Source of the DNA: Corythucha ciliata
Taxonomy: Eukaryota > Arthropoda > Insecta > Hemiptera > Tingidae
Assembly: GCA_038030265.1 (NCBI GenBank)
Contig: CM075943.1
Span: forward strand, 26,784,001-26,848,000
Direction of reading: 5' to 3'
DNA length: 64,000 bases
A model generated the notes under the pieces. It saw only the letters and a program-made list of their open reading frames with translations, searched no databases and was not told the origin of the DNA. Positions 4,831-61,845 of the stretch are shown in pieces. Both the position numbers and the translations under genes were made by a program. How positions within the stretch are numbered: the stretch's first letter is position 1; each line of letters opens with the position of its first letter.

Positions 4831-7800
4831 GTATGTGGCAATGAACTGTATACGTTATTGGTAGGTAAACTAAGGAAGTGAGAGCCAACCTTTAAGTGAA
4901 TTTGTACGATTCGCATTAATCGATACAATTCGTTTTGTCGATATCGCTGCATGTGAATACTTAAATTTTGCCCCCTCACCCTTCCAATGGACCATTTTCC
5001 GGAGAAATAAAAAAAAATTAAAATGTATGGAAATTGAGTTATTAGGATGAAATGATCACGAAAAAAACACTTTAAAACTTTTTTTGCCCCACTTTTATGC
5101 AGATAAATGAAAAGATGAAAAGTAGGGATGTGACGTCACAACATTGTAAACAGAGGCTAAAGTAACGAACCTTTAAAGACGAGTAGACGCATACGGCGCC
5201 ATGTTCGTCTTATCAGATTAATAAGATGGGTTGGGGGTGGTTTGTTGACATCCACAAAACATCAACAAAAGGTGGATTTTACAAGACTGATAATTGATAA
5301 GAGCGAACATGGCGTCTGTGATTTTACCTGTCTGATTATAGGTTCACAGACCTGATTATAGGTAATCTTGTGGGTTCTATATTTGAACGAAGTATCGAAC
5401 CAGGCGCTTATGATAAAAACTTACACAATACAGAGGTAGTCCAGATCCACTTCTACCACAACAATCGCCCCACTTCCACCCCCTTAAACTTAATGTGTAT
5501 AGTGACATAACACTGAGCGAAGATTTCATGTTTGTGATGACTGATGACAATTGGGTCTGCTACACTGGAAGAGCGCACCGTGACAAATTTGACAGCCCCC
5601 CCCCCCTGTCAGCTAAGAATAAAACCGTATTTGACTCTTACTTTCGAGTGTCTGGTGACCAAGTTTCACGGTCTGATAGTCCGTTTTTGGAACTAGAATC
5701 GTCAGTTTTTAAAGCCAAACCAATCAAGCCCTGTGGGCTATATCTGGTTTCTAGAGCAAAATGAACAGTTTCTGATGAGTAATGGTCATTTTTGTACCAG
5801 CTCAGCCTGCAAGCAGTGAACTCACCCGCAGCCATGAGCTATAGGCACAAACTGGTGCCAAGGACCACGGTGCTGTCATGAAGCCAGAAATCTGGATTTT
5901 TCATTTTCGGATCAAAAACGGATAACTACGTCACATAAACAATTCCTAGCCCAGAAACCAATTAACCGCAAAGTAGACCCACAGAAATGAACCCACTGTC
6001 GTCTAAGCTTCTGCGTATGATTCTAGATTATTGCTGTGGCCAGTGCTTCACAACAAAAGCATCCCCCCTCCCTTTCCATATTTTTTGGAGGTTCGATAGT
6101 TCAAAATTGACGACTAGCCGTCACTATTACTCCGCGAGGGAATCAATCGAATACAAAAAGAAAATATTTTGTAGTCACAACCATTTCAAAGCGGCCATGT
6201 TGTAACTGTCGCTTTTATACAAAGTACAAAGGGCGTCATAACTCCCTTTTGTACCGACAATTACATTGTTTCCCAACATATGGGCCCCCTGGGAGAGTTT
6301 TGAAGAGAGTTTAAAAGAGAACTCCTTCGTAAAAGATGGAAGCGACATTTTAGGATGAGCGGGAGTCGGTAGAAGGGGCTTACATTAAAAGGCATTTATA
6401 TAAGTGAAGTGTGTGAGTGAGAGAGAAGAGACGGGAAATAAACGACCCCCTCCCCATCACAAAACTTTCCCACCTCCCACCCCTCCCAACAAACCCATGA
6501 AACGAGCGGAATTGAACCCGGGTAATGCCTTTTACAATGGGAATATTGTTACCGATAGGGGTAAAGGCCTCTTCCCCACCCCCTCACTCACTCCTGACCA
6601 CATTTAAGATTACAAAAGAAATGTCTCCCGAAAACTTTTCTCTTTTGTGTACAACTTTTCCTTCCTAATAAAACGTTCTTCAACGCCCCCACCCTTCCCA
6701 ACTGCTACCGACAACCACCACTCCACCAGCATCCTCATCACGCCTAATCCCTTAAGGGAGTTTCTCCGCGCCTTATTATACGCTTTAAGGGCTCCTTTTT
6801 CAAAACCCATCAAATCCTTCTCCTTTTAAGAACAGTATGCTTGAATTTGATCGGAATGTCATCATCTCAGTACTACGGGCAAAGACATTTTCGAAACCTC
6901 CCCCCCCCCCCAGCATAAAGCGCGTGATTTTACGACTCGACGCAAATGTGTACCATTCTCAAGAGGGCTACGCCGCCGAGGGGGGAAAAAATAAAGGACG
7001 AGTCCCTGTCAGTACGATGGAAATAGGTTGAGGGAGGTCGCGAATAGAGGGGAATATAGATGTATTCTCCTTGATCAGTCTCTGGAACCGAAAAGGGTGC
7101 CCTGGAGAGGGGTGGGGGAATAAGGGTATGATAAAGGGAATGGAGGGGGGTGAAATGCATTTTTCTGACCTTTGAACGTTGGTGAAGGGGGGAAAAAACT
7201 TCCTCCCCTTTCGTCGTTTAATTGTGATTATTTTGATTTAAAAAATAAAACGGATCAGTTGACTCTGTGACATGGTTTTGAACAACGTTCAAAACATCTG
7301 CTGTTGAGGTTTAAGGGCCACGTTTTCGACAAGAAACCAAAAACCTGCGGGGGAATTTTCCGTTTGATCCTCCTTTTCCACTACAAGAGAAAATAAAAAT
7401 GGCGTCGATGCAAATCCTAGCATAAAAACGCTTGGAATAGCCCCTCAAAGTATAGAAAGCTTCTCTCTTTTTTCCCATTTTAGATGGCGAGGTAGAAATT
7501 TAAGGAGAGGAAGTTTATATACACCCGCAGCCAGTTCCGTAAGCAATGGCGCAGGGGCGGTATGGGGGGGGGGCAATATAAAAGCTTTCACGCCGAAAAA
7601 AAAAAAAAAAGACAGAAAAGGCGGCAGCAGGGTGGTAATACTGGGGACTGGAACTCCCAGGGAGGGGTTACTGCTAGGGGTGGGTTTAATGGTGGTTGCC
7701 GGGTAACGTTCAAGTATGAAGGGGGTAGTTGTTGAGGGGTCTGAGTGGTGGAAGTTCTTTTCTTCCTTTCCATTGGTCAGACACGCCGCGGTTTATGCGT

Positions 7801-19437: not shown

Positions 19438-21124
19438 GACGGTACAATAAGAAAATTTCTATTCGTAAAACAAGCACAACTGATGATTTTATTTTTGTTT
19501 TATAATAATTAATGGAATTAATTATGGCGTCGCTACACTACCCTCCTCCCAGTGACGCTTCCCAATTGGCAAAGTATTATTTCAGAAATATTTCACGAAA
19601 CATTTCTGATAAGTTGCTGACTTTATTTCAGTTACGTTTTCATAAGACTGTTTCGGAAAGATTTCTTTGTAATATTTCGATAACATGGCAGAGTAACATT
19701 TCTGTCATGTTTCCACGAACATTTCATTTCTGATATGTTCCACGAAATATTTCAGACACGATTCGGGTTCCATTTCAAATACGTGTCAGTTACGTTTTCA
19801 TGATGTTTCGGCAATATTTCTTAGTAATATTTCTTAGTAATATTTCAATAACATAACAAAGCAGCGTTCATGTCAGGCTTCTATGGGACCGTTCTGAAAT
19901 GTTTCACGAAATATTTCTGACACGATTCAGGTTTTATTTCAAACATGTGCCAGTTATGTTTCATGAAACAGTACTATAGTTGAACCACATTCTAAGGAAA
20001 CCAGCAAATCAATAAAACCAACTTGTTTTACATATGATACGGTTCATGTCCATCTGGAAATTTTGTTAAAAAGTGTCATTAGAAAGTGGTAGAGTTATAC
20101 TAATATTTCAAAAACATAATAGAGAAATGTGAAGAACTTGCGTTAGAACCGGGCTCTGGGAGTGAACCTCTAGCCAGACAAATACGTACAGAAACTAACA
20201 GTTAGAACTGTGCAGTTAAGCTCCTACGTACATGGGTATTCCAGTATCAGTTTAGCCAGAATAGTTTCACAGTCAGTTGAAACTGCATATCTACCGCAGC
20301 AACCGAACCGAAAAGCACGGAGTTCACCCAAGACTCACGGTTCACGGTTCGACTACTTCAATGGGCTCTGAATCGTCCATCCTCTTAAAACCGCTTAATT
20401 TCTTCTCTGTAATTAATAATAACGCATGAAATAATTTAGCAGGCAAGTCAGAAAAAATTTTACCTCTTAATCCTGAGTGCCGCTCCCGCCAGGTAAGGGC
20501 TAATTATTTTTATCATTTCCCGTTTTCCCAAATTTGGAAATTTTGAAAGGGCCGCAGCTGCGACACAAATCACCCATGATGAGTCGACAACGAAACAAAT
20601 TAATTCCACATGCATCTAAATGGATTCTTCCAAGAAATCGAGAGAGAGTTGACAATTTGAAAACAAAGATGCACTGGCGCAAAATAAGGAAGAAAACCGT
20701 TATACGAGGGCTGGTTGTTTGTTGTTTAGACAATACTGGGAACTGAACAATTCCAGTGAATCGGGATTGCATATTATGATTATGACCCTCACGAAACGTA
20801 TGATTTGCGTGGATGCAGCTGACCACAGCAAACATCCCAATTGTCCCGGTGTAATAAAATGCACGCATCAGGCTAGCAAATGAATACCAGAATGAAATTT
20901 AAGTACCAGCGATAGCTTACTTCGAATTATTTTAAAAATCTCCGTTCTTTCCTCGATTTTTTTCTTTTTCTTTTGCCCAGCCCACGAAAACTGGACGGCC
21001 AACGTGACGTCGCCATTGGCAAGGGTACATTTCAGAAATCTTTCTGAAACATTACAATGTTTCAGCTTTAATGATTGCATGTGAAATATTCCTGAAATAT
21101 GTCTGAAGCATGCCAAAAAATGGT
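19438..21124. repeat. Degenerate repeat block, no gene
   Basis: Phrases such as cacgaaatatttctgacacg recur. A longer direct repeat is visible at about 19741-19803 and 19907-19970 (period ~167). cgcttcccaattggcaaagt near 19556 resembles cgtcgccattggcaagggt near 21008. From about 20100 to 20990 I see nothing I can name. Confidence 0.45.
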
Positions 21125-21725
21125 GGGTCATTCCACCTCATCTCACCGGACTTTTGCAGTCGACCCCTCCGATTTCGCTCATTTTTGGTGTGGAGGCTCA
21201 CTTTTATGGTTAATGAGGCCACGCAAAGTATTATTGAGAGAAAAAATTTTTTCAATGACTTACGGCGTTTTTACGATTTTGGACATTTTTCGAAAATGTG
21301 GTGACTGTAAAAGCGTTTTTGACCATATCTCCGGTTCTAATCAAGTTATTTTCCTTCTCCTTGTCTTATTTTGTTCGGAAATAAGTAAAATTTAAGAATA
21401 TTAGCATATAAAATCGTTAATTGCTTTTAAACAATTTTTAGGGCGTTTTCCGCACTAAAAATGTTCAATTTTGAATTTCTCAAAATGGGTCAAGTCGGGA
21501 ATTTTTCGCGCGGTGTTATAATGTGCATTAGGATCTAGTGAAACACAGCCTACAAGGGTTTTTTGTGTTATTTTTGTATATCGAAGTTACAGTAATTTTT
21601 ATAGTCTTAAACGCCTGTTTGCCTATCCATATTCGCGTTCCGGCAACACTTGCCTTTCCATTATCTCTCAAATGACCTCCTACGAGGCATAGTTTCATTA
21701 AATATTATTTTTTCACTCCTCTTTG
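21125..21725 (+). repeat. Left terminal inverted repeat of the DNA transposon
   Basis: Pairs with 32015-32615 in inverted orientation. Differences are scattered single bases (for example ttttccgcact against gcgtttgttgcact near the middle). Open frames in both arms are shadows of the repeat. Confidence 0.85.
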
Positions 21726-22335
21726 ATCCTTAATGGAAATCATAATTTGGAATTCAATTGACAGCCCATGAAGATATTTCGGACATCGTTATGTGCCTGG
21801 TCTTCATAACTTAGGTAGGTACGAAATATTGACTCGCGGTTTCTCCAAGCTTGAAATTATGAAATAAAAAATGTATTGTATTTTAGAGTATACAAAATAT
21901 TATGTAGGAACATCTTTGTTTAAGGCGTTTCAAAAATAACGGCCTTTCCTTTTCCCGTCGTAGCTGCTCAGGCCCGCAGAGACTATTCTATTGCTTCTTC
22001 AAGTGTCGGAGCTCTGTCCACATTCAGCCTTCCGCTTCATGGCTCTAAAGAAAAAACAAAAAAGAAAACGTACATTTGAATTTAATTTGGAATGCAAATA
22101 ATCTCATAAATTTCAGACAATGACGACTCACCTAGTTTCTACTCGACTCTCCGGATTTTGACGAACTTGACGTTGAAAGGTGACCGTTGTGTGAGTGGTG
22201 TCAAGAGAAAAGTTCTTGAAAATTATGCTGTCTGGCTCTGAGGGGATTATTGTGTGGCATGATCTTATCCCGGTTATAGGAATCTATTTATTAGGTATTA
22301 GGTTATAGGTATCTATTAGGTTATAGGTATCTTTC

Positions 22336-22399
22336 CTTAAACGTATGGAAAACTTCTTTTAAATTGCCAAGCACTAGACGCTTTTGTTTGCGTTCCCGT
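22336..22399 (-). pseudogene. Continuation of the transposon gene beyond the Gypsy insertion
   Basis: On the - strand from the insertion point the frame continues as KQKRLVLGNLKEVFHTFKER and ends at a stop shortly after. This is what the family has directly after the MPG...VRE segment found on the other side of the Gypsy element. The frame is unbroken if one copy of the CCGT duplication is ignored, so the Gypsy element hit this gene. Further downstream a short repeat (ataggtatctattaggtt) replaces the expected sequence. Confidence 0.65.
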
Positions 22400-23469
22400 T
22401 GTGGCGTTCCACAAAGGGAGTACATAAAAAATACATTACATACAAAAATTCAGAACTTTATTTAAAACTAATAGTGAGACTTGAATAATGTAAAAACCCC
22501 ATCGTCGTAACCAAATACTGTTCGTCCCTCTGTTGTGTTCGATGTAGCTGTCATACCCTGTATCGCCGACCTGTCGTTTAACGGAATATTGTTCGTTCCC
22601 CTGTCGTGTTAATTGCAGTTGTTAACTAAAAACAAAAAAAAACATAAGAACAAATAATTAATGAATAACAAAAATACGTACAATCAACGAAAAATGTAAA
22701 CAATAGTGATAACCATGGTAGTGACGCGATAAACTTACCTGCCACCGCGCCGGGTCTCCCCGCATATTCCATTTCTGGAGCCAAAATTTAGGCGGTCGAA
22801 GTCGTAAATGTGGAGGTGGTCGTCGCCATTAGAAAAAAGGAGTCGAGCGAGGAACGTCTAAGGAGGAAGGACGTCGGCCAAGAGGTCTGAGAAAAGGCAT
22901 CTTCGTGTGCAACCCATTGTGGCTTCCTGGTTTCCCGTGAAGTTCGACGGACTGCTCAGCAAGGTAAAGAAAAACAGGCCCATCACTATAACGAAGATTA
23001 TAAGAATTCTTTAAATAAAAAAAGGGCTAACCTCTCATCACCACGGGCCCACGAGGGAAGTATCGGGCGCCGAGCAGAAGATCCTTAGTCGGTGCAAAAG
23101 GGAGACTTCAAAGTAAGCTCCGAACGGAAATCTCGATGACGAGGCCGGCATTTGTTAAACGACATTTATTGCAGGTCTCCCTTTTTTTTTGTTTTCTTGA
23201 CTCCTGTCTGGTTCCGTCCTCTTCAAAAATTTTTACATCACGAGTGATCGTCCATCTTTTCCTGCGCGTCAACCGTCGCCTCCGAATTCGACCATCGCCT
23301 TCCAATCGGGACTTTGTTAAAATTAAGGTAGATATTTCTAAACTTGTAAGGGTGCGCATCTCAGAATTTATAAAATTTAAAGATAAATTTAACGTATTGG
23401 TTTTTGTTTAATAATTAATTATTCACACGTTCAAAAAATAGTCCGAATTTTCTTAAAGAACCCGCTACA
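22400..23469 (+). repeat. Gypsy 5' LTR, 1070 bp
   Basis: Starts TGTGGCGTTCCACA, a short palindrome, and ends ACCCGCTACA. Same length as the 3' LTR; reading them side by side I saw a single difference (ctggtttcccg near 22930 against ctgggttcccg in the 3' copy). Open frames inside on both strands are identical in the two LTRs and look non-coding. Confidence 0.95.
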
Positions 23470-23472
23470 AAA

Positions 23473-23490
23473 TGGTGGCCCAAGGCGGGG
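23473..23490 (+). other. Candidate primer-binding site
   Basis: TGGTGGCCCAAGGCGGGG starts three bases after the 5' LTR. Reverse-transcribing LTR elements usually have an 18-base complement to a tRNA 3' end (starting TGG) here. I did not identify the tRNA. Confidence 0.5.
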
Positions 23491-23607
23491 AAGAAAACTA
23501 ACGGAAAGTAAACTTAATCGTGACTAATCTGTGACTAATTTTCCTTGTGGTTACTAACAAATATAGCCAGTTTGATAGTGGGAATTTAAATCAAATCGCG
23601 TTGTGGC

Positions 23608-25280
23608 ATGCCGAACAAAACATCTGACCCGAAAACAACTACTTTAAGGTCAAAGAACACCTACGTATTCAGAAACATTACCGATAATAGCGTAACAATG
23701 TCTTCAACCGATAGTGATTCTTCAAATGAAACAATAGTGCAAAATGACCCCTCCTACTCCTCACTTGAAACCAATCCGTTAATCACACAAATATCATTCT
23801 AAGCTCGCAAACTCATAACCCAATTGAGCAAATAACCACTCTTAACGACATACGGGACTTAATAATAGAAATGAACAGAAAAATTGAACTAGGTCAAAAG
23901 GAAATAAAAAGGGACATTCAAGAAATTAAGGAGGACGCCCGACGTCAAAGAGAGCTATACGACTCAAAGTTCGAAAACGTTAACGAAGAGTTCAAGAGCC
24001 TACATGACATTTGCCAGGGAATGACTAGGGATATGACGAGACGTGAAACCCAGTATCAAACTGACTTACAAGTGGTCCAGGAAGATATAAATTATGAAAG
24101 ATTGCGAATGAACGAGATTGAGAAACAAGTCAAAAACCTTACTCATACCAGAGCTATACACGAAGGACGATTGGCGAATTTGGAGAAAGACGCTCGAGCG
24201 ACCCGCACTGAACACGAACAAATAATTAATTTTTTGCACACGGACAGCATTAACACGAACGATAAACAACAAACAACACTTCTTCGCGAACCCGTCGGAA
24301 ATAGTGTCGAAGCAGACCGTACCCTGGTAGCTACTTTAAAAGAAGTTTTTCACACACAAATAAATAATTTAGACCTTTCAAAAATAACATTCGACAACTT
24401 TAAAACTGATTGCCCCCATAAATATTTAAAAAAATTGAAGGAGGCTTGTAGCCAAGGGCGATACACTAACAGTGCTTTCGCTGATAAGGTCACTGATACA
24501 CTAACAGGGCAAGCTCATCTTTGGGGGGTTGTAAACAAGGAAAAGTTCGTTGATCTCGACAGTTATCAAAAGTTGTTTACGGATAAATTTTGTGGTGCCG
24601 AATATAAACTCTTTATAAATAAAGTCCTGTACGCTCAAACTTTTAAGGAAAATTCTTCTGTGTCACCGGAGGTGTACGTAGTAAATTTAGCAACCCGCGC
24701 TCGAATAGCCGACCCGAACTTAAATGAAAAGGATTTAGTTAGAGCTTTGGGGGGGCATTTTGGTCCTACCGTTCGGCAAACCGTTCAACTCCAGAACATA
24801 GTCTCCCTAGAAGATTTTGTCGAATACATCCATCAGATAGGACAGGAGGCTATCCTAAGAGACCTCAACAAGACAACTCAAAATCCTCCATATCAAAAAA
24901 GGGAAGTCTCGGGTGAGCCCAAACCGCCTTTTGAACAGAATTATTCACAGGGGAGTCAAATTTACAATAATACAACGTCTAATCAAAATAAAACATTTTA
25001 TCGTCCCGAAACAAAAGACCACTATAGCAAACCCTATAATAGAAATGGCCATAACTTTCAACAAAATTACCATCAAAACAGGCGATTTAACAGGTTTCAT
25101 GGTGAAGAAAATAGAAATTTTAGTCAACAAAATCAAAGAAACCCTCAAATCAATGCGATTAGCGCCGAACAGGTTGGTGGACAAAACGAAGACCCTGATG
25201 ATAAACCAACTCCCGGGACAAGGGATTGTCAGTCAAAAAACTTTCCCCAAAATAGTGAAACTGTCGACCAAAAAAACTAG
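23608..25280 (+). CDS. gag: Gypsy Gag
   Basis: The main frame is 23871-25280 (469 codons from the internal Met) and stays open upstream to about 23750. A separate frame, 23608-23802, begins MPNKTSDPK and probably is the true N-terminus, joined by a one-base shift in this copy. Seen: a charged coiled-coil region (about residues 1-110 of the main frame), a capsid-like helical region (about 160-340, with FCGAEYKLFINKVLYAQTF), and an Asn/Gln-rich tail. There is no CCHC zinc knuckle. The TAG stop at 25278-25280 directly follows a slippery heptamer. Gag would form the intracellular particle. Confidence 0.85.
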
Positions 25281-26692
25281 AAGAGGGGGGGCTAACAGGC
25301 TGTGTAGCCAACGAAGCTTCCGGCGAGTTAGTTCCCACTAATATCCATCTAAACAAATGTATAGAGAAAAAACCTACTGTTAGCGATCCGATCTCTGCGA
25401 ACACTATATTAAAAAATGTAAACGTCCCATCAAGTTTAGTCGAGTCTTTCATAGATTTAGCCCGAGTCAATACATTAAATAACGTCGAGACGTGCGGTAT
25501 ACTGGCAGGGAAACTTATGAACGACAGCTATGTAGTGACACATTTAATCATTCCCGAACAAAGAGGCACGGCCGATATGTGCGAGATGACCAACGAGGGC
25601 ATTGTTAGCTCGTATATAATAGAAAATAAAATCATTCCTCTTTCGTGGATTCATACCCACCCATCGCAATCGTTGTTTTTAAGTTCGGTCGACTTGCATA
25701 CCACGGCGGTATTTCATAGATTTTTGCCAGAGTTCTTTGCTATTGTCGTTGCCCCCCACCTCAAAAGTACAAAATCATTTGCCATAAAGTCCCAAGAAGT
25801 ATCGAACGCGATAAACAAATGCTCATTGAAAGGTTTTCATGAACACCCTTCCCTTCTCGAGATCTATGGTGAAGCAAGCCATATAAGACAGGGTATCCAC
25901 CCGCTAATAATTCAAGACTTCCGAACAACAGTCAGTACTCCAGTACTAGTAAAAAACAATAAGATTCGAAGCAAAAATCCACCTACCGAAACAAATAACC
26001 GATTGTCGCCACTCACTATAACTGAGTTTACCGAAGATGTCTCCAAGGAAAACCCAAATTGTGAATCCCCTGTATTAAAATCACCCGTTGTAATCGCAAC
26101 AGTTTTTGAAGATTCAGAATGGTTGCTTGACGAGCCCGAATCGAGTGTTCAAATAAAGAGAAAGCGCCTGACATGTCCGATCGTTGAGGGATGTGTCGGG
26201 ATGGAAACCGTAAAAATCCTTATCGACACAGGCTCTCAGGTTTCGGCTGTCTCGGAAGATTTTTTCATAAAACATATAAAAGACCAATCAAGTTATGAAC
26301 TACTTCCGGCTTATACCACTGACGTGAAGTGTGCAATATCTAAGAAAACTTTCAGAATTACACACCAGATCATGATTAACCTTAAATTAAACCAAACCGA
26401 CATAGAGGTCATTTTTTTCATTATCCCCGGCCTGAACACACCGGTGATTGTGGGTTCCGATTTTCTTTTCGAGTGGGAGGCCATTATAAATTTTGAAAAT
26501 AAAGGTATACAATTAACTGTAAAAAATAAAACCTTCATTGTAGATTTCAAGACGGTTGAACAAAAAAAACAAATATTAAGCATAGAAGTTGGACAAACAG
26601 AATCACCGCAAGAAGAGCCCCACTCGCAGGGAAGACCGGAAAGCGAGGACATTTGTGAAAAACCTGCACATTTCATCGAAAGCAAAACTTAA
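25259..26692 (+). CDS. pol: Pol part 1: AMSH-type JAMM/MPN+ domain and retropepsin
   Basis: The frame is open from 25259 and is -1 relative to Gag. JAMM domain about 25445-25870: FIDLARVNTLNNVETCGILA with the catalytic Glu at 25487; WIHTHPSQSLFLSSVDLHT from 25646, giving H-x-H-x7-S-x2-D; then CSLKGFHEH near 25820. AMSH/STAMBP proteins have these same elements, with the second zinc held by the His after DL, the Cys and the FHxH histidines; all are present. AMSH enzymes cleave Lys63-linked ubiquitin chains. The retropepsin follows (KILIDTGSQVS near 26215, VIVGSDFLFEW near 26445). The role in the element is unknown; trimming ubiquitin from Gag or countering host tagging is my inference. Confidence 0.88.
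   Translation, partial: NCRPKKLEEGGLTGCVANEASGELVPTNIHLNKCIEKKPTVSDPISANTILKNVNVPSSLVESFIDLARVNTLNNVETCGILAGKLMNDSYVVTHLIIPEQRGTADMCEMTNEGIVSSYIIENKIIPLSWIHTHPSQSLFLSSVDLHTTAVFHRFLPEFFAIVVAPHLKSTKSFAIKSQEVSNAINKCSLKGFHEHPSLLEIYGEASHIRQGIHPLIIQDFRTTVSTPVLVKNNKIRSKNPPTETNNRLSPLTITEFTEDVSKENPNCESPVLKSPVVIATVFEDSEWLLDEPESSVQIKRKRLTCPIVEGCVGMETVKILIDTGSQVSAVSEDFFIKHIKDQSSYELLPAYTTDVKCAISKKTFRITHQIMINLKLNQTDIEVIFFIIPGLNTPVIVGSDFLFEWEAIINFENKGIQLTVKNKTFIVDFKTVEQKKQILSIEVGQTESPQEEPHSQGRPESEDICEKPAHFIESKT
25271..25280 (+). promoter_or_regulatory. Candidate -1 ribosomal frameshift site at the Gag stop
   Basis: A AAA AAC at 25271-25277 is in the Gag frame (codons AAA at 25272, AAC at 25275), followed at once by the TAG stop. 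Slipping back one base enters the frame that opens at 25259 and runs to 26692 (JAMM and protease). X-XXY-YYZ heptamers of this form are classic -1 sites. I did not verify a downstream stem-loop or pseudoknot. Confidence 0.7.
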
Positions 26693-29384
26693 ATTGACGT
26701 CCCTTATTAAACGCTATAGTAGCATATTTCGAGACCGGCCCGGACTTATTCCCGGATATAAACATAAAATCCAACTTACAAACAAGGAGCCGTTCAAATG
26801 TTTTCAGTATCCGTTACTTGCAATAGACTTCCCCAAAGTTGATCAAGAGATACAACGCCTTCTTGATATGGATATAATCGAAAGGTGCGATAGTGCTTTT
26901 TTGAACCCGATCCTGATAGTAAAGAAAAAAGACGGAACCGTTAGAAAGTGTCTGGACGCGCGTAAAATCAATTCAAAAATGCTCCCCCAATATGACGTTA
27001 CGAGATCGTTCGACGAAATTATAAGAGATGCGAGTGGTTGCGTCTGGATGTCCACTTTGGACCTTCAGGCTTCGTTCCATCAGGTGGCCCTAGATGAAGA
27101 AAGTCGGGATTTTACCGCATTCCGTTACAAGGGGTTAGTTTATCGTTACAAAAGAGTCCCCTTTGGGATTAAGACGGCTTCTTGTGCTTTAGAAAAAGCT
27201 TTGCGGCCATTAATACCCGATGACCTTTCAAATAATGTTAAGTCCTACGTAGATGACGTTCTGATCTATTCACGGTCTGAAGAAGAACATTTAAACCACC
27301 TTGAAGCTTTGTTTCAAATCTTTGAAAAAAATAACATCACATTAAATTTTAAAAAATGCACTTTCTTCCGTAAAGAATTGAAGGCCCTAGGTTTCAAACT
27401 GACTACCACCGGTATTCAAAAGGATTTAGAAAAAGTAGAATCAATAATTAAATTCCCACGCCCAAAAAACATTAAACAAACTCAGAGTTTCTTAGGATTA
27501 GTGAATTTTTATGGTCGATTTATCCCCGACATGTCGAGTATAGCTGCTCCCTTGTACGCGTTAACACACAAAGGTAAAAAGTGGGAATGGGGAAAGACAC
27601 AAGAAGACGCATTTGAGAAAACTAAAAACGTTATTAGTAAAGATTTAGAGCTAGCGTACCCAGATTTTACTAAACAATTTTATATCGAGTCAGATTCTAG
27701 CGACACTGCGGTTGGTGGTATGCTTTACCAAGAATACGAAGAAGTCGGTAAGAGGCCTATTGCTTTTATGAGTAAAACTTTAACCCAAAGCCAAATTTCC
27801 TACACCACGACTGAGAAAGAGTTACTAGCGACCGTGGAATGCCTAAAAAAGTTTCTTGTTTATATCGGTGGGTTTCCTTGTGTTGTGAGAACAGACCATA
27901 AAGCCATAATTTTCCTACAGCGTTGTCGAAACCCGTCCCCGCGCCTTTTAAGATGGTTACTTTTTCTACAAGATTTCAATATCAATTTTGAATATATCCC
28001 TGGTAAATTAAATAAAATGGCAGATTTATTAAGTAGGGTTAAGCCCATAACGGAATTGAATTTTGAAAGTCCAAACAATTTAACTATGTTCTCGTTGAAA
28101 ACATCCCAATCTATGCATGAAAGGTTAATGAAGATTATAAGATCAATCCCTCAAGAACAATATCGTGATCGTGATTTACAGTTGCTTAAACAAAAATTCC
28201 CTGAGAAATTTATCGAGTCGAATAATGTCACTTACTATAAACCAGGAGGTGCATTCCTTGTTTACATTCCAAAAAACATAATCCACAGGCTAATAGAAAC
28301 AATACATTTAACAAATATCCATATAGGCATCGCAAAATGTTACAAGTTAATTCGCGAAAGTTTTTTTCACAAAGGTTTGAAGGCAGAAATAAAAAGAGTT
28401 GTACGTGCCTGCCATGAGTGCCAGGTGAATAAGGCGAATAATTCCAACTTTCAATTCCTCGCGGGGATAATCGAGTCGAAGAGGAGACTGGACATTTGTT
28501 CAATCGATCATGTAGGGCCACTACCCAGAGGGAGTTTTGGTAATCAATATGTACTTACGGTTATCGACAATTTAACAAAATATGTAAAAATCTATCCGAC
28601 TAAAACGACTAAAACTGCTGAAACAATCGCAAAATTAAAAAAATATTTCAAGGAGGTAGGCAAACCTAAAAAAATTATTTCGGACAGAGGATCTTGTTTT
28701 ACAGCAAAGAAATGGTTACAATTCAAGCAAAATGAAAATTTTGAACACATTCACATTCAGTTTAAACGACCCAACGCTAACCTATCGGAAAGGGTGAACA
28801 AAGAAATAGTAACTTTCCTTAGAATACTCGTAGGTAAACAACAGAGCGCATGGTGTGACTGGATACAAAAGATTGAAGACACGCTCAATAAGACATTCCA
28901 TTCCGGGATCAACAGGACCCCGTACGAAGCTTGGTTCCTGAGACACCCTCCACGAGAGTGGGACGCACTCAAGTACCCTGAGATGACTTTATCAACACCA
29001 GAACATCCTAATAGTGGAAACGTTGACCCAGGGTTACACGGACCGAAACATAATAGTGAAGACTCAGACGATAAAATACACCTAACGACCGATGCAATGG
29101 ACGACGAACTTTACCAAATCACCAAAAAGAAGCGACAAGATGTAGCTGACAAAAAAAATGCGGGGAAAAAACAATACTATTTCAGAATCGGTTCTAAAGT
29201 CCTCGTTCGACAATTTCAACAAAGTAGTAAATTGACCCAAAAAAATGCAAAACTAACACCCCTTTACAGCGGACCACACATAATCGAGAAAAAGATTGGC
29301 GTCAACACGTACCTCATCAAAGACCGTACAAAAAACCGAATCATGATCTTCCACGGTACCCTTATGAAACCCTACCACGAATAA
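26589..29384 (+). CDS. pol: Pol part 2: reverse transcriptase, RNase H, integrase
   Basis: 931 codons in the +1 frame relative to part 1, overlapping it by 104 bases, so it is made either by a second shift or by a one-base lesion in this copy. RT: KKKDGTVRKCLDARKIN, LDLQASFHQV, FGIKTASCALE and the active site YVDD at 27246-27257. RNase H: IESDSSDTAVGGML, TTEKELLA, RTDHKAI, LADLLSR-like end. Integrase: an HHCC finger (H-x4-H then CHECQ), the DDE core (IDHVGPLP, ISDRGSCF, Glu in SERVNKE) and a GPY/F-like tail (LYSGPHII). No chromodomain was seen. Full length, with no internal stop. Confidence 0.93.
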   Translation: MDKQNHRKKSPTRREDRKARTFVKNLHISSKAKLKLTSLIKRYSSIFRDRPGLIPGYKHKIQLTNKEPFKCFQYPLLAIDFPKVDQEIQRLLDMDIIERCDSAFLNPILIVKKKDGTVRKCLDARKINSKMLPQYDVTRSFDEIIRDASGCVWMSTLDLQASFHQVALDEESRDFTAFRYKGLVYRYKRVPFGIKTASCALEKALRPLIPDDLSNNVKSYVDDVLIYSRSEEEHLNHLEALFQIFEKNNITLNFKKCTFFRKELKALGFKLTTTGIQKDLEKVESIIKFPRPKNIKQTQSFLGLVNFYGRFIPDMSSIAAPLYALTHKGKKWEWGKTQEDAFEKTKNVISKDLELAYPDFTKQFYIESDSSDTAVGGMLYQEYEEVGKRPIAFMSKTLTQSQISYTTTEKELLATVECLKKFLVYIGGFPCVVRTDHKAIIFLQRCRNPSPRLLRWLLFLQDFNINFEYIPGKLNKMADLLSRVKPITELNFESPNNLTMFSLKTSQSMHERLMKIIRSIPQEQYRDRDLQLLKQKFPEKFIESNNVTYYKPGGAFLVYIPKNIIHRLIETIHLTNIHIGIAKCYKLIRESFFHKGLKAEIKRVVRACHECQVNKANNSNFQFLAGIIESKRRLDICSIDHVGPLPRGSFGNQYVLTVIDNLTKYVKIYPTKTTKTAETIAKLKKYFKEVGKPKKIISDRGSCFTAKKWLQFKQNENFEHIHIQFKRPNANLSERVNKEIVTFLRILVGKQQSAWCDWIQKIEDTLNKTFHSGINRTPYEAWFLRHPPREWDALKYPEMTLSTPEHPNSGNVDPGLHGPKHNSEDSDDKIHLTTDAMDDELYQITKKKRQDVADKKNAGKKQYYFRIGSKVLVRQFQQSSKLTQKNAKLTPLYSGPHIIEKKIGVNTYLIKDRTKNRIMIFHGTLMKPYHE

Positions 29385-29401
29385 ATCCTTCGCACGTTCA
29401 A

Positions 29402-29453
<52 letters not shown>

Positions 29454-29468
29454 GTAGGGGAGGGCAGT
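29385..29468 (+). other. Post-integrase A run and polypurine tract
   Basis: A run of ~45 A (about 29408-29452), then gtaggggagggcag, abuts the 3' LTR at 29469. The purine-rich tract is the expected plus-strand primer. The long A run just before it is unusual and could be slippage. Confidence 0.7.
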
Positions 29469-30538
29469 TGTGGCGTTCCACAAAGGGAGTACATAAAAAA
29501 TACATTACATACAAAAATTCAGAACTTTATTTAAAACTAATAGTGAGACTTGAATAATGTAAAAACCCCATCGTCGTAACCAAATACTGTTCGTCCCTCT
29601 GTTGTGTTCGATGTAGCTGTCATACCCTGTATCGCCGACCTGTCGTTTAACGGAATATTGTTCGTTCCCCTGTCGTGTTAATTGCAGTTGTTAACTAAAA
29701 ACAAAAAAAAACATAAGAACAAATAATTAATGAATAACAAAAATACGTACAATCAACGAAAAATGTAAACAATAGTGATAACCATGGTAGTGACGCGATA
29801 AACTTACCTGCCACCGCGCCGGGTCTCCCCGCATATTCCATTTCTGGAGCCAAAATTTAGGCGGTCGAAGTCGTAAATGTGGAGGTGGTCGTCGCCATTA
29901 GAAAAAAGGAGTCGAGCGAGGAACGTCTAAGGAGGAAGGACGTCGGCCAAGAGGTCTGAGAAAAGGCATCTTCGTGTGCAACCCATTGTGGCTTCCTGGG
30001 TTCCCGTGAAGTTCGACGGACTGCTCAGCAAGGTAAAGAAAAACAGGCCCATCACTATAACGAAGATTATAAGAATTCTTTAAATAAAAAAAGGGCTAAC
30101 CTCTCATCACCACGGGCCCACGAGGGAAGTATCGGGCGCCGAGCAGAAGATCCTTAGTCGGTGCAAAAGGGAGACTTCAAAGTAAGCTCCGAACGGAAAT
30201 CTCGATGACGAGGCCGGCATTTGTTAAACGACATTTATTGCAGGTCTCCCTTTTTTTTTGTTTTCTTGACTCCTGTCTGGTTCCGTCCTCTTCAAAAATT
30301 TTTACATCACGAGTGATCGTCCATCTTTTCCTGCGCGTCAACCGTCGCCTCCGAATTCGACCATCGCCTTCCAATCGGGACTTTGTTAAAATTAAGGTAG
30401 ATATTTCTAAACTTGTAAGGGTGCGCATCTCAGAATTTATAAAATTTAAAGATAAATTTAACGTATTGGTTTTTGTTTAATAATTAATTATTCACACGTT
30501 CAAAAAATAGTCCGAATTTTCTTAAAGAACCCGCTACA
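29469..30538 (+). repeat. Gypsy 3' LTR, 1070 bp
   Basis: Same length as the 5' LTR and nearly identical, ending GCTACA and followed by the CCGT target duplication. Transcription end signals cannot be placed with confidence. Confidence 0.95.
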
Positions 30539-31588
30539 CCGTTCGCCATTTCGTTCCCTCACAGTCACATAATCTCGGGCACCTGGCATTATCCGGCTGA
30601 TATCATCGCTCGTATAAAAATCGGCAACTTTCTTCTTTACGTCGTCGCTTAGCGGTTTGCCACGCTTCTGGTTGGGACTCGATAAAATGCCCTTTTCTGT
30701 AACAAGAGCTTTACTTCTGCGGGCTAAATGCTCCGTAACATTGAACACTTGCTGTACTTGAGCAACTGACCATGTCTTTGGTAACACGGAAAGTATTGTC
30801 ACTTTTTCGCTCTACTTTACACATATTTCTAGCCTTTCTTGAAGCTGCATTATCATTTCTTTTCCTGCCTGAGCGAAGTTGATATTTTGTGCAAGGTCTT
30901 CGCTTTCAGATGAGTCGTCAGCATGCACAATTTTCTTGAACAATCGCTCTACAGAATGTGTGACTCTAGTTTGCTTGAATGTTGCCAAAGATCGATTTCT
31001 GCGCAATCGGTGTGGTACAACCGGGGATTCGCCGATACCTTGCAGCCCTTCATTTAATTTTTCGACGAGTTGGTGCACCGGTGATTGCATTCCCCTGGAA
31101 TGGGTGCTATCAGTGCTCGAGTATCAGTGCTCTCTTGATAATCGGTGCTGCTAGATCCCGATCCTTCCCGCGGCGTTGGCAGCCCTTGCGATGCACACTG
31201 TTTTTTTTACAGCGCCTGAGCACGCACGGCACAGCAAACGTCCTGGCGCCACCGTTGGAAACTTTTCGCGGCACATCCGGTGAAAATCCTCACTGACTTT
31301 CCTAAGGCTTCTATTTTTCACCGGTTTTAAGTGGACATTTAATGGGTCACAACACGCTCTTTGGGACGACGCAAAACGTCTCAGATAGTAGTCGGTGTGA
31401 GAAGTACAAACCGTACTAATTTCAGGAACACCACTGCGCACTTCAAGCAAGTACAACTCTTTTTGTGAAAACGCACTTCTTACTTTAAAATCTGTTTCAC
31501 TTGAACACCCGCGTTGCAACTTGACACCGATGGAACATCGAGGTATCCTCTCCGTCATCACAGCAACACTTTCATCCATTACGTACAC
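30539..31588 (-). pseudogene. DNA-transposon gene, upstream part, decayed and interrupted
   Basis: Reading down the - strand: 31588-31151 encodes a domain with Cys/His pairs (CTSHTDYYLRRF, CCDPLNVHLK, LLCRACS), possibly zinc-binding; 31090-30812 is a linker; after an in-frame stop at the CVK/SEKV junction, 30802-30539 encodes TILSVLPKTWSVAQVQQVF and DDISRIMPGARDYVTVRERN. The frame runs straight into the Gypsy target site. The motif order (LP-x-x-W-S, D-D-x-S-R-x-M-P-G) matches a family of transposon-like proteins I recall but cannot name. Stops and a frame break show it is not functional. Confidence 0.6.
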
Positions 31589-32014
31589 TTCGAACGTTTC
31601 AGACCGAATGGAAATTTGTTAGGACAAGTTGGCTTCTTTCTTCTTTTAACACATCATCTCTGACTCCTTCCGCCCCCCTCATCATCAAATGTTGCTTTAG
31701 GATAAAACAATATGAGCTCACTAAGCCTTTTTACCATTAACGATTCAAGCACTTTCTTAAATCACATTTTGTCTTGTCCTTATTTTTTTTCTTAGCCCAG
31801 TCAGCCTTTCGTATCCACCCAAGATCTACGTATTAAAAAAAAAAAACGTTTCTATCCACTCTACATCCTTAACTTCTTTTTATAATTACCTTTCCTCCCC
31901 AACACCTCTCACAAGACTCTCGCCCTCTTATGTGTGACCCTCCGAACCGTATACAACAGCGCTTAGAATATCTAGGCTTCGGAGCAGGCATTCGTTAAAC
32001 TGAACAAAAAGCGA

Positions 32015-32615
32015 CAAAGAGGAGCGAAAAAATAATATTTAATGAAACTATGCCTCGTAGGAGGTCATTTGAGAGATAATGGAAAGGCAAGTGGTACCGG
32101 AACGCGAATATGGATAGGCAAACAGGCGTTTAAGACTATAAAAATTACTGTAACTTCGATATACAAAAATAACACAAAAAACCCTTGTAGGCTGTGTTTC
32201 ACTAGGTCCTAATGCACACTATAACACCGCGCGAAAAATTCCCGACTTGACCCATTTTGAGAAATTCAAAATTGAACATTTTTAGTGCAACAAACGCCCT
32301 AAAAATTGTTTAAAAACAATTAACGATTTTCTATGCTAATATTCTTATATTTTACTTATTTCCGAACAAAACAAGACAAGGAGAAGGAAAATAACTTGAT
32401 TAGAACCGGAGATATGGTCAAAAACGCTTTTACAGTCACCATATTTTCGAAAAATGTCCAAAATCGTAAAAACGCCGTAAGTCATTGAAAAAATTTTTTC
32501 TCTCAATAATACTTTGCGTGGCCTCATTAACCATAAAAGTGAGCCTCCACACCAAAAATGAGCGAAATCGGAGGGGTCGACTGCAAAAGTCCGGTGAGAT
32601 GAGGTGGAATGACCC
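32015..32615 (-). repeat. Right terminal inverted repeat of the DNA transposon
   Basis: Inverted copy of 21125-21725, ending gaatgaccc at 32615 and followed by the TGGT duplication. Confidence 0.85.
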
Positions 32616-33628
32616 TGGTACCATTTGAAACGTTTGGTAATATTTCTGACGTGATTCCATATATCAAGACGGTCACATTTTATTGAAATATTGCGCACAT
32701 ACTGTTGGTCATGTAGCAGTTATACAGGGTGTTCAAAAAATGGATGTCAATATTTTGCCCTGTGAATGTACGTCCAAAATGCGTCAAAATTATCCGTATT
32801 AACCATAGTCCGATTCCTAATAGTTTCCGAGATATTAAGGAAATAAGCACTTTTGTAATGGGCCTCGTTTTTACGGATAAAATCGTTCGTAGCTTGGCAA
32901 CCAGAGCTCTCACGTCAAATTAAGTGGCACCATTGGAAAGGACAGACTTTTTTCCATTAGACTTCGTGTTGTTCAATTCAATTTTGTTCGTACGCGCTGA
33001 GGAAATCAGCTGCGAACTCAAAATTATGTTCAAGTTCATCATCGTTGGCCATAATTTGAAGTCAGATTTCTGCTCAACAGGTGCTTTCCGAGGTGACATT
33101 TTTTGAGAAAAGTTGGCGCACGTTACCATCGTTAAAGTAACATATTCATCCCCACCCTTTACCCACAATTTTTCAGAGTTTCTCTATTCATACTATAAAA
33201 AACGCTACATGCATCCTCATGTAGTCATTACATTAATGACCAGAGTAGCTCCTAATAATTGTAACCTCATGTTTTATTACTCTTCTTTATTGTGATAGGC
33301 GGATCATTTTTCTAGATTCTCATTTCTAGAAAAATTTGGAAGTTCTGAAAAAATGAATTTTTTAAATTTCCACTTTTCGGTGATTCATTAGGGTTTTCCG
33401 AAAGTAAACCCCTAGAAAACACGAATAGATTCATTACAAATTCTAAAATTAAGTTATCCATAGAAGTTTTAGTACATAAAAGGGATTAAGTAATTTTTAA
33501 TTCAAAGAAAAAATTCGAATTGCCTCCCTTGTTAGCGGATACAAAGTTGTGCGCGTCTTCCAACGACCGGTGGACCTTATCGAGCAATTCATCACGGATA
33601 CTGTTGCACGTGTTGGTTATTTTTTGTC

Positions 33629-33829
33629 TTATGTCTCGATGTCTGGAATAGGATCTGCGTAGACTATATTTTTGATGTGTCCCCGTGCGTAGAAGTCTAA
33701 AGGGTTCAAGTCAGGTGAACGCGGCCGCCATAATGTTGGACCAGCTCTTCCGATCCATCGGTTCGGGAAAGTCGTGTCCAGAATACGGCGGGCTAATCTA
33801 CTAAAATGAGGAGGAGCTCCATCATGCAT
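33629..33829 (-). pseudogene. IS630/Tc1/mariner-type transposase fragment
   Basis: Encodes HDGAPPHFSRLARR, WIGRAGPTLWRPRSPDLNPL and DFYARGHIKNIVYADP, the last third of a DDE transposase of the IS630/Tc1/mariner superfamily, with the second Asp (HDGAPPH) and the SPD third Asp. Unique spacer of the palindrome plus the first bases of the left arm. The N-terminal two thirds are missing, so it cannot encode an enzyme. Confidence 0.8.
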
Positions 33830-34039
33830 GCAGATCCTATTCCAGACATCGAGACATTAAGACAAAAAATAATCAACACGTGCAACAGTATCCGTGATGA
33901 ATTGCTCGATAAGGTCCTGCACCGGTCGTTGGAAAGACGCGCACAACATTGTATCCGCCAACAAGGGAGGCAATTCGAATTTTTTCTTTATATTAAAAAT
34001 TACTTAATCCCTTTTATGTACGAAAGCTTCTATGGATAA
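33806..34039 (+). pseudogene. Transposase C-terminal fragment in the right arm
   Basis: Reads DPIPDIETLRQKIINTCNS, then RRAQHCIRQQGRQFEFFL, the usual C-terminus of this transposase type (IDELR...I...C...GGHFE). The matching sequence on the - strand forms the other arm. Non-functional alone. Confidence 0.7.
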
Positions 34040-34774
34040 CTTAATTTTAGAATTTGTAATGAATTTACTCGTGTTTTTCTAGGGGTTTTCTTTCGGAAAC
34101 CCTACCGGATCACCGAAAAGTGGAAATTTAAAAAATTCATTTTTTCAGAACTTCCAAATTTTTCTAGAAATGAGAATCTAGAAAAATTATCCGCCTATCA
34201 CAATGAAGAAAGAGTAATACAACATGAGAGTTACAATTATTAGGAGCTACTCTGGTCATTAATGTAATGACTATACATGAGGATGCATGTAGCGTTTTTT
34301 ATAGTATGAATAGAGAAACTCTGGAAAAATTGTGGGTAAAGGGTGGGGATGAACATGTCACTTTAACGATGGTACCGTGCGCCAACTTTTCTCAAAAAAT
34401 GTCATCTCGGAAAGCACCTGTTGAGCAGAAATCTGACTTCAAATTATGTGCAACGATGATGAACTTGAACATAATTTTGAGTTCGCAGCTGATTTCCTCA
34501 GCGCGTACGAACAAAATTGAATTGAACAACACGAAGTCTAATGGAAAAAAGTCTGTCCTTTCCAATGGTGCCACTTAATTTGACGTAAGAGCTCTGGTTG
34601 CCAAGCTACGAACGATTTTATCCGTAAAAACGAGGCCCATTACAAAAGTGCTTATTTCCTTAATATCTCGGAAACTATTAGGAATCGGACTATGGTTAAT
34701 ACGGATAATTTTGACGCATTTTGGACGTACATTCACAGAGCAAAATATTGACATCCATTTTTTGAACACCCGTA

Positions 34775-47583: not shown

Positions 47584-48663
47584 TTACATAAGGTGTTCAA
47601 ATTGCTGTCCATTTTGTTCTACACACAAGGACGCTCTCTTCAACCACTCATCGTTGACAGCATCTCTGATTGACTGCTCTTCAATTGAATGACAAGCATC
47701 TACTATTCTTCTTCGCAGCTCGTCAATCGTTGCTATGGGTGGAAGATGACCCGCATAAACCTTATTTTTAAGATAGCCCCAGAAAAAATAGTCCATGGGG
47801 GTCAAATCGGGTGAACGGGCAGGCCAGGCAATCAAGCTCCGGTTTCCTAGCCACCTTTCCGGATAATGCTCGTTGAGGTGTGCTACTACGGGCCTAGCGT
47901 TATGAGCAGGACAGCCGTCTAACTGGATCCGCATGCGGCGTCGGGTATCCAAGTCCAATTCTTCCAACAAACCAGGAAGAACATTTACTAAAAAGTCCAA
48001 AAAGCGTGGTCCATTAAGACTTCCCTCGTAGATCCAAGGACCTATAATTCTGCCCCGCAACAACCCACACCAAACATTCAGTTCTATTCTCACTTGGTGG
48101 TGAGTGGCATAGCTTTGGCGAGGGTTGGAATCCGACCACGTTCTGAAGTTCCACCGATTCAGAATTCCATTGTTTGTGAACTTGGACTCATCCGTCCACA
48201 GCACGTTATCGAGAAACCATGGCGTCGCTTCGATTAAAATGGACATTTCAGCAAGAAAAGCTGTCCTCCTTTGTGGATCATCAGGGCGTAAGCCATGAAT
48301 CAGATGGGAGCGATAGGGTAAAAAATTGTTCGCGTGGAGTATTCTTTGAACAGACGATCGGCTGATTCCTAGAACTCTGCTCATTTCGCGTGTTGAAGCA
48401 TGCGGGTTTTCTTCCACGTACAGAAGAACTTCAAATTCACTTTCTTCACGTCTCGCCGGCGCGATTCATCTTCTACCCGCAGCAGTAGCAACGTTTCCGG
48501 TGTTCCGGAAACGGCGCACGGTATTCAAAATCGTCTGATGCGAGACGGCTCGGTGATGAGGGAAGAGTCTGGCAAATTCTATCGCGCTCATTCGGGCCCG
48601 CTGGCCACTTTCGAAGAAAATTCTGATCATTTCGGCCCCTTTCAAAAATTGAAATTTTCCCAT
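47584..48663 (-). pseudogene. Transposase, DDE type, one in-frame TGA
   Basis: The frame runs from ATG at 48663 to a stop at 47584, broken only by TGA at 48466-48468. The N-terminal part (FQFLKGAEMIRIFFESGQRA onward) is a helix-turn-helix-like region ending AAGRR; then a second HTH (STREMSRVLGISRSSVQRIL). Catalytic motifs: WTDESKF (first Asp), IQLDGCPAHNARPV (second Asp), WPARSPDLTPMDYFFW (third Asp, 36 residues later by my count). The C-terminus ends QQFEHL as usual for the family. Transposase cuts and pastes its element at TA sites. The rest of the frame is intact, so inactivation looks recent or the stop is a sequence error. Confidence 0.88.
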
Positions 48664-57916: not shown

Positions 57917-58555
57917 AGAGAGTTTACTCGAGAAGGGGTGCATCTTCCGTTTTTCGCCAGAGTATATGCTGAAACTTGGTGTCATCAGGATGAGTCCATA
58001 TATGCCTATACATCATTTTTAAATCCGTCGAAAGCGCCACCGGTTGGAGGCGAAAACGAGTGAGAATTTCGCCAATATCTTTTTGTAGTGGAGGACCAGC
58101 TAACAATCGATCATTGAGAGAGAGACCGGAAGCGTCGGGACAGGAGGCGTCAAACACCACTCGAATTGGTGAGGTCGGGGAGTCACGTTTGATAGCAAAA
58201 TGCAGAATAATGTAGAGACCAGGGTTTTCAGAGAGTCGCATGTGACGAGATCGAGGTAATTCTGCATGAAGTCGTGATAGGCTAAGCGTTTAGTTTCGTC
58301 ATGCCGTAATTTTCGTTCGACTTGGCACCACCGTTTTACGGCTGTAGTGCGGCTATCACCGAAGTGCTCCTGACTGGAGGAGTCTTTAAATGGGAGGCGT
58401 ACAATGTAAGCATCGGAGGGGGCGCGACTGTGAGTATTGACGAAGAGTTGCTCCGCTTCGATGTGCTCAGGTTCTTCTGAAGGAACGATATTTTCTACTT
58501 CTTCTATTTTCCAGAAGCGTTCTACTTGGGCGTGGAGTCGGTCTGATGACACCAA
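57917..58555 (-). pseudogene. BEL/Pao pol, upstream segment, inverted
   Basis: Reading down the - strand: LHAQVERFWKIEEVENI and LPFKDSSSQEHFGDSRTTA (region after the Pao protease), a frame break, then RVVFDASCPDASGLSLNDRL, LSTDLKMMYRHIWTHPDDTK (start of RT). It ends in the ~71-base segment that also opens the + strand portion, so this block is inverted relative to the rest of the element. Confidence 0.85.
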
Positions 58556-59126
58556 GTTTCAGCATATACTCTGGCGAAAAACGGAAGATGCACCCCTTCT
58601 CGAGTATACTCTCTTAACCGTAACATGTGGTTTGACTTCATCACCTTTCCAAGCTCAGCGGCTCCTTCAGCAATTGGTCAAAGACCATGGACTTAAATTT
58701 CCTCTCGCGTCGGAAGCTCTCTTAAAAAGATGTTTCATGGACGATGTTTGCACAGCGGTTCGTTCAGAAAGCGCAGCGGTTCAGCTAAAACAGGAGCTTG
58801 ATAGCCTCTTACACTTGGGTGGGTTCGAGCTGAGAAAGTGGGCATCAAACTCAACAACTCTGCTTCAAGATATTCTACCGGAGCATCGCGCTGGCGTTCT
58901 TTCTCTTCATTCGGACGAGTCTAGGCCGATTCATATTCTCGGGCTTGAATGGAATCCCAAAAAAGATATTTTCACCTACAAAATCTCACTCAATTCCAAC
59001 GCACGTACGAAACGGAGTGTACTCGCTCAAGTGGCTTCGATTTTCGACCCTTTGGGGTGGGTGGCACCAGTGGTTTTCAAGGCGAAGGCCTTTCTGCAAG
59101 ATTTGTTGGCCGCCGGGCTCGAATGA
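58543..59126 (+). pseudogene. BEL/Pao reverse transcriptase segment
   Basis: Reads DDTKFQHILWRKTEDAPLLE, LTVTCGLTSSPFQAQRLLQQ, the active-site-like FMDDVCTAV, and QVASIFDPLGWVAPVVFKAK, all typical of Pao RT. It ends at TGA 59124-59126 where the family has Trp (LE-W-D), probably a point mutation. The frame otherwise continues past the SINE. Confidence 0.9.
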
Positions 59127-59144
59127 GACACCCCTCTGCAAGAG

Positions 59145-59442: not shown

Positions 59443-59453
59443 CTCTGCAACAG

Positions 59454-61838: not shown

Positions 61839-61845
61839 AATCGAG

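Follow-up and report, generated by a model that had tools for sequence, protein, structure and literature searches.

A captured AMSH-type JAMM domain at the N terminus of Pol in a Ty3/Gypsy lineage of Corythucha ciliata: a putative Gag-tethered deubiquitinase

A 64,000-nucleotide (nt) stretch of the Corythucha ciliata genome (GCA_038030265.1, contig CM075943.1, positions 26,784,001 to 26,848,000; hereafter, the window) contains a Ty3/Gypsy long terminal repeat (LTR) retrotransposon in which an AMSH/STAMBP-type JAMM domain lies between Gag and the protease (PR), and other Gypsy families of the same genome carry such a domain as well. The identity of the domain, its predicted fold, intact active site and position, the single reverse transcriptase (RT) clade of its bearers, purifying selection, and a frameshift signal were all obtained computationally. 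With modest confidence, we propose as an overall explanation that the captured JAMM acts as a Gag-tethered deubiquitinase that protects the element's particles. Under this proposal, the domain would be active with a preference for Lys63-linked ubiquitin, frameshifting would take place, and the packaged enzyme would meet a target and benefit the element.

Identity and active site of the JAMM domain

The original prediction, made from the sequence alone, had read the domain as an AMSH-type JAMM placed between Gag and the protease, and both points hold. MPN/JAMM profiles match the window domain, which contains the E...HxHx7Sx2D motif, the second zinc site (His, Cys, His, His), and the Ins-2 signature GFHxH; its predicted fold is closer to AMSH than to other MPN proteins, and it is 39-44% identical to 40 host (cellular) AMSH proteins. 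A protein search with the JAMM-PR open reading frame (ORF) gave 774 matches, the best 120 of which are JAB proteins, most with a cellular MIT-type domain. In BFVD, only distant JAB proteins were found (best E 2e-6, template modelling score 0.52), and PHROGs gave no match. Compared with the cellular JAMM deubiquitinases AMSH/STAMBP, AMSH-LP, and Sst2, the element domain differs in lying inside a Pol ORF and in its missing N-terminal part: no MIT domain (USP8_dimer, PF08969) was found in the gag, JAMM-PR, or RT-integrase (IN) ORF, so that the element does not encode a full-length AMSH and, as anticipated, the catalytic module alone was captured. AMSH cleaves Lys63-linked chains without partners, a specificity set by the zinc-held Ins-2 (PMC9313428). 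Cleavage of Lys63-linked ubiquitin by the element JAMM is predicted from its sequence.

JAMM-bearing Gypsy families across the genome

In the 400.9-Mb assembly (57 contigs), the JAMM query gave at least 38 match rows, including the window itself, on several chromosomes, with the next best 56% identical. When 9-kb stretches were read at 20 other JAMM loci, a Gypsy-type PR accompanied JAMM on the same strand in all 20. A chance ORF and a lone pseudogene fragment were rejected as readings. RT was recognized at 17 of these loci and Gag also at 17, the latter as an ORF beside JAMM that is homologous to residues 171-400 of the window gag (phmmer). A single ORF spans JAMM, PR, and RT in nine; JAMM-PR-RT-IN forms one ORF of 1298 aa at L019, L020, and one other place, of 1348 aa at L025 and four other places, and of 1289 aa at L035 and two other places. 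An 80% identity threshold sorts the 21 JAMMs into 13 groups, between which identity is 33-58%. LTR identity reaches 99.8% over 839 nt at L025 and 99.2% over 657 nt at L035 (both LTRs cut by the stretch end), which marks these two as recent insertions. No ORF above 120 aa follows Pol in the 695-1171 bases available at five loci. The window family itself is represented elsewhere by LTR matches (30 rows including its own two, several being pieces of one LTR), and no second copy with the window's own JAMM was seen in the genome; the domain is nevertheless not peculiar to one copy, as other families carry it. At L055 (C5:39.53 Mb), a JAMM-like fragment occurs twice, at about 2378-2614 and 5563-5799, roughly 3.2 kb apart; the two copies have the same amino-acid sequence and are preceded by stops, and this duplicated fragment was all that the locus offered in the search for the host AMSH gene.

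Vertical descent with Pol and constraint on the active site

The RT tree comprised 14 JAMM-bearing and 57 database RTs (seven of the 21 loci were omitted, their RT being short or missing), and the JAMM-bearing RTs group together as a single clade (100/99.5), of which the window and L016 are the deepest branch; the two nearest database RTs are P0121 and P0129, in which the upstream JAMM status is not visible. Among 140 RT matches listed in the genome, 68 have at least 41% identity: of the 34 rows at 49% identity or more, 28 have a JAMM no farther than 3.5 kb upstream, against none of the 34 at 41-48%, the 49% cut having been set after the list was viewed. Six RTs of 50-54% identity, which would place them in the JAMM clade, have no upstream JAMM match (C3:49790080, C2:45868621, C3:52190041, C2:1000910, C4:2755664, and C4:18228384), either through truncation or through secondary loss. 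In the JAMM-less sister L054, a 482-aa gag ORF is followed directly by PR and RT in the -1 frame; JAMM therefore sits where, in this sister, the frameshift site and the protease adjoin. Distances between JAMMs are correlated with those between RTs (0.92 over 14 loci), and with one locus per family (11 loci) the correlation is 0.75, equalled in 1 of 5000 permutations. We suggest that an ancestor of one Ty3/Gypsy subclade would have captured an AMSH (STAMBP) catalytic domain at the N terminus of Pol, and that the domain would then have descended vertically as part of Pol, its sequence remaining that of a competent catalyst.

Of the 21 JAMMs, 18 retain all nine catalytic and zinc residues (the exceptions being His to Arg in L029, Cys to Trp in L030, and the cut L034), and the Phe of GFH in Ins-2 is kept in 20. 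The dN/dS estimates cover those pairs whose JAMM proteins are at least 50% identical. Between families, synonymous change is at or near saturation, with a dN of 0.33-0.50: the window and L016 JAMMs differ at 86.4 of 102 synonymous and 112.6 of 372 replacement sites, and the L032-L035 pair has a dS of 2.86 and a dN of 0.33 (ratio 0.12). JAMM codons are thus constrained between families rather than neutral, and the earlier expectation that selection retained the domain is confirmed by these other families, although the window copy alone would not show it. An active site intact across many diverged families suggests that the elements use the enzyme.

Frameshift signal and predicted expression

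In the window, gag and the JAMM-PR ORF overlap by 22 nt in the -1 frame, and a heptamer in register, a spacer, and a downstream structure, as expected of a -1 frameshift signal, are all present (Table 1). The stem has a folding energy of -25.8 kcal/mol and a z-score of -3.03, equalled by 1 of 200 shuffles (z -2.35 for a longer segment). At 17 junctions examined (4 of the 21 loci, with no usable gag ORF, were omitted), A AAA AAC stands in the gag register in 11, namely the window and 10 of 16 others; it is immediately 5' of the stop in eight, at -24 nt in L019 and L020, and at -33 nt in L035. L032 has A AAA AAA 21 nt upstream of the gag stop. The frames of L023, L024, L026, and L027 are interrupted, with AAAAAAC directly before the gag-frame stop, and that of L030 is interrupted with AAAAAAC just after it. 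Ten of the 17 junctions were folded, with a stem z-score below -2 in seven (the window, L023, L025, L028, L029, L033, and L035). JAMM is accordingly predicted to be made as Gag-JAMM-PR(-RT-IN), at a low ratio to Gag and tethered to it. This position, first after the gag frameshift, resembles that of the betaretroviral dUTPase in pro.

Proposed function and alternatives

In the mechanism that we favor, -1 ribosomal frameshifting would yield Gag-JAMM-PR-RT-IN, and Gag would carry JAMM into the assembling particle, taking over the targeting role of the lost MIT domain; with no MIT found, targeting probably falls to Gag. The enzyme would then trim Lys63-linked ubiquitin from Gag, Gag-Pol, or neighboring proteins, sparing particles or their contents from ubiquitin-dependent turnover, so that JAMM may perhaps serve to resist the ubiquitin system of the cell. 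Because no env-like ORF was seen and a late-domain motif occurs in only 1 of 10 JAMM-element Gags, protection of Gag or Gag-Pol is likelier than a role in budding. Precedents are PEG10, a Gypsy-derived Gag-Pol under proteasome-dependent control, and Ty3, which an SCF subunit inhibits (PMC10076021). A role in polyprotein maturation, one of three put forward in the original prediction, was rejected as the least likely of them, since ubiquitin chains are what AMSH-type enzymes cut and the element already has a retropepsin.

Several points weigh against this proposal, in addition to the split JAMM tree, the ambiguous donor placement, and the weakly constrained young copies treated below: (i) the stem is not significant at 3 of the 10 folded junctions (L019, L022, and L024); (ii) L016, L031, L032, L033, and L034 do not have JAMM and PR in a shared open frame; (iii) at the column that we take to be human Thr313, the window JAMM has Met (31 T, 4 M, 4 A, and 1 S in the 40 hosts), which could weaken distal-ubiquitin binding; and (iv) the need for PEG10 ubiquitination, and degradation as the route of Ty3 inhibition, are called unknown in the same source (PMC10076021).

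Alternatively, JAMM may edit Lys63-linked ubiquitin on endosomal proteins or on the endosomal sorting complexes required for transport (ESCRT) and thereby steer Gag trafficking or the release of particles in vesicles, much as the cellular enzyme works on cargo ahead of scission. AMSH-class enzymes do work with ESCRT (PMC9313428, PMC2768365), but the missing MIT domain, the rarity of late-domain motifs in the Gags, and the lack of an env-like ORF in the stretches examined make this unlikely. JAMM could also blunt Lys63-ubiquitin signaling of the host, in innate immunity or the DNA-damage response, rather than protect Gag. The near-universal Phe of the specificity-setting Ins-2 would suit such a role, and the OTU/Ulp1 domains of DNA transposons have been proposed to act on DNA-repair signaling (PMC2836005); however, in the long-ORF families JAMM is fused to PR and RT, tethered to Gag, and predicted at frameshift level, and we likewise consider this doubtful. 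Some loci have JAMM in an open frame of its own, probably as a result of decay.

Whether one capture or two took place bears on the descent proposed above. The JAMM tree separates 19 element JAMMs (100/99) from the window and L016 (100/100) on long branches, as would be expected if AMSH had been captured twice at the same Pol site. Yet the 14 tested RTs form one clade with the window and L016 deepest, the insertion point is identical, and a single JAMM clade was not rejected in a constraint test (p 0.26); we therefore read the split as probable long-branch noise on 162 columns and hold two captures to be improbable. In donor trees, the window JAMM groups with oomycetes (98/94), whereas a tree that places it inside Metazoa exceeds the unconstrained one by 2.7 log units (p 0.53). 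Because the branches are long and constraint tests fail to separate an oomycete from a metazoan origin, no donor is claimed. Full-length insect AMSH queries (P0006 and P0118) gave JAMM matches and no MIT-side exon in the six-frame genome search, and a PF08969 family search found no match in the genome or in its own controls, so absence of a host AMSH is not claimed.

With the preferred reading of a catalytically used JAMM, the alternative of a passenger or spacer, i.e., a captured domain that is tolerated and merely folds, has to be compared. JAMM evolves faster than its neighbors (dN between the window and L016 is 0.387 for JAMM, 0.211 for PR, and 0.152 for RT), and young copies are little constrained: L018-L028 differ by 0 synonymous and 3 replacement changes, L025-L031 by 2 and 9 (ratio 1.36), and L028-L030 have a ratio of 0.62. 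Other young pairs look constrained (L021-L022 with 5 synonymous and 0 replacement changes; L033-L034 with a ratio of 0.31), and the pattern appears as expected of a mix including dead copies, with differences too few to judge. Against a passenger stand the strong synonymous excess between families and the catalytic and zinc residues that are intact in most JAMMs despite the deep divergence of their groups, and we regard it as very improbable. An assembly or annotation artefact, in which a host AMSH exon or pseudogene was fused by chance, has nothing in its favor beyond the host AMSH gene missed by the six-frame search and can be given next to no credence in view of the 38 match rows on several chromosomes, the Gypsy PR at every locus read, and the 13 JAMM groups.

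Comparison with known systems

In the articles consulted, captured ubiquitin-family proteases of mobile elements are cysteine enzymes (OTU, Ulp1, and one C19) in DNA transposons and long interspersed nuclear elements (LINEs): OTU and Ulp1 domains occur in Ginger, Mutator, and Helitron transposons, and Ulp1 in NeSL/Utopia LINEs (PMC2836005, PMC4640811). In contrast to these ubiquitin/SUMO proteases, the enzyme described here is a zinc metalloprotease of the JAMM type in an LTR element, retained within Pol while its LTR clade diversified. LTR elements have captured other accessory enzymes, i.e., dUTPase, GDSL esterase, and DEDDy exonuclease in rotifers and AlkB in an orchid Gypsy (PMC5408684, PMC9289625), and the giant Gypsy Burro has ubiquitination-related MATH_TRAF and RING motifs (PMC6431247); the available parts of these three articles name no deubiquitinase among them. 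The rotifer dUTPase sits between PR and RT, and the other rotifer enzymes and the orchid AlkB are in separate ORFs. JAMM is mentioned as a general deconjugating enzyme family in a review of viral deconjugases (PMC7464072). No report of a JAMM, AMSH, or MPN domain in a retrotransposon was found in open PMC titles and abstracts, a coverage outside which most subscription papers and Repbase reports fall.

Among 33 JAMM proteins of 553-1712 aa, the only clear RT fusion is P0246 (1407 aa, from a 5-kb ENA contig), which joins an R2-like RT (R2, 1.7e-27) to a C-terminal AMSH JAMM (STAMBP, 3.7e-55) that keeps 39 of 40 host-invariant residues. It shares the AMSH JAMM-RT fusion with the window element but differs in being a non-LTR element and in the C-terminal position of the domain. 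A common origin of the two JAMMs was neither supported nor rejected (p 0.39); P0246 is possibly an independent AMSH recruitment, though one contig does not make this secure. By eye, it also has an endonuclease-like stretch. P0273 (Tanacetum), with MIT, JAMM, and zf-RVT, is probably a gene-model fusion, and P0241 has JAMM fused to unrelated domains. In viral contigs, queries with the JAMM-PR ORF and with the RT and AMSH alignments yielded no confirmed locus, and bacterial genome contigs searched with the RT alignment yielded seven loci at 28-32% identity with no JAMM above the inclusion threshold. Among the best 120 of the 467 RT relatives, none carries JAMM in the ORF of its RT (best 7.7 bits), including the 15 in which 450 aa or more precede RT; most of these ORFs are not long enough to rule out a JAMM in a different frame. 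In P0147, whose RT is 42% identical, the stretch between PR and RT reads as SGNH/GDSL-hydrolase-like, with no Pfam match; this would presumably be another accessory hydrolase in a related Gypsy.

More tentatively, and with somewhat less than even confidence, we suggest that the whole Gypsy lineage packages a Lys63-specific deubiquitinase as its first Pol domain against ubiquitin restriction, and that retroelements have recruited AMSH independently on two or more occasions, in Gypsy and in an R2-like LINE. If true, this would point to a general arms race that pits retroelements against the ubiquitin system. With the JAMM elements, a possible restriction of retrotransposon particles by ubiquitin becomes directly testable, because the enzyme is small, its cellular form is partner-free, one residue suffices for a catalytic knock-out, and a JAMM-less sister clade is present in the same genome.

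Structure of the window element and its surroundings

The window element has the LTRs, short target site duplication (CCGT), retropepsin, and PR-RT-RNase H-IN order of Ty3/Gypsy (Table 1). Its RT-IN ORF matches RVT_1 (2.3e-26), RT_RNaseH (1.5e-29), Integrase_H2C2 (2.3e-13), and rve (2.1e-11); no Pao-type Pfam model was found in the gag, JAMM-PR, or RT-IN ORF, and the gag main ORF had no Pfam match above the cut-off. The RT is closest to Gypsy RTs, the best 120 of 467 matches having RVT_1 and RT_RNaseH, an assignment for which few listed matches are named and the RT tree had no named Gypsy reference set. Nearly identical LTRs and intact frames had been claimed for this copy. The former stands, with a single difference between the two 1070-nt LTRs; the latter is doubtful, because PR to RT is a +1 frame change and the gag 5' end is ambiguous, so the copy is not plainly intact. 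The primer-binding-site-like sequence reads TGGTGGCCC. Rfam gave nothing above the gathering score in 21000-33000.

Table 1. Features of the JAMM-bearing element (window coordinates)
Feature	Position	Strand	Basis
5' LTR, TGT...ACA	22400..23469	+	1072-nt match to 3' LTR, 99.9%
Putative primer binding site TGGTGGCCCAAGGCGGGG	23473..23490	+	read from sequence
gag main ORF, 503 codons, stop TAG 25278-25280	23769..25280	+	ORF list
JAMM-protease ORF, 477 codons	25259..26692	+	ORF list
Slippery heptamer A AAA AAC, gag register, immediately 5' of gag stop	25271..25277	+	
Predicted frameshift-stimulating stem, 10 bp, 9 nt 3' of heptamer	25287..25336	+	folding
AMSH/STAMBP-type JAMM (MPN+) domain	25400..25924	+	profile and sequence comparison
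Retropepsin, DTGS active site	26177..26536	+	
RT-RNase H-integrase ORF, 932 codons	26586..29384	+	
Polypurine tract-like GGGGAGGGCAG, 5' of 3' LTR	29457..29467	+	read from sequence
3' LTR	29469..30538	+	same LTR-versus-LTR match

The element is nested in another repeat with 601-nt inverted arms (98%; 21125-21725 and 32015-32615), probably a DNA transposon. ORFs on the minus strand at 30500-31618 have no Pfam match above the cut-off. Further along the window are nested long inverted repeats at 32727-34771 (448 nt at 98% and 277 nt at 91%), a Mariner/Tc1-type transposase ORF (DDE_3) on the minus strand at 47584-48465, and a BEL/Pao-type element at 58434-63629 (Peptidase_A17, H2C2, and DUF5641), which a LINE-type RT-RNase H ORF at 59696-61699 overlaps or interrupts.
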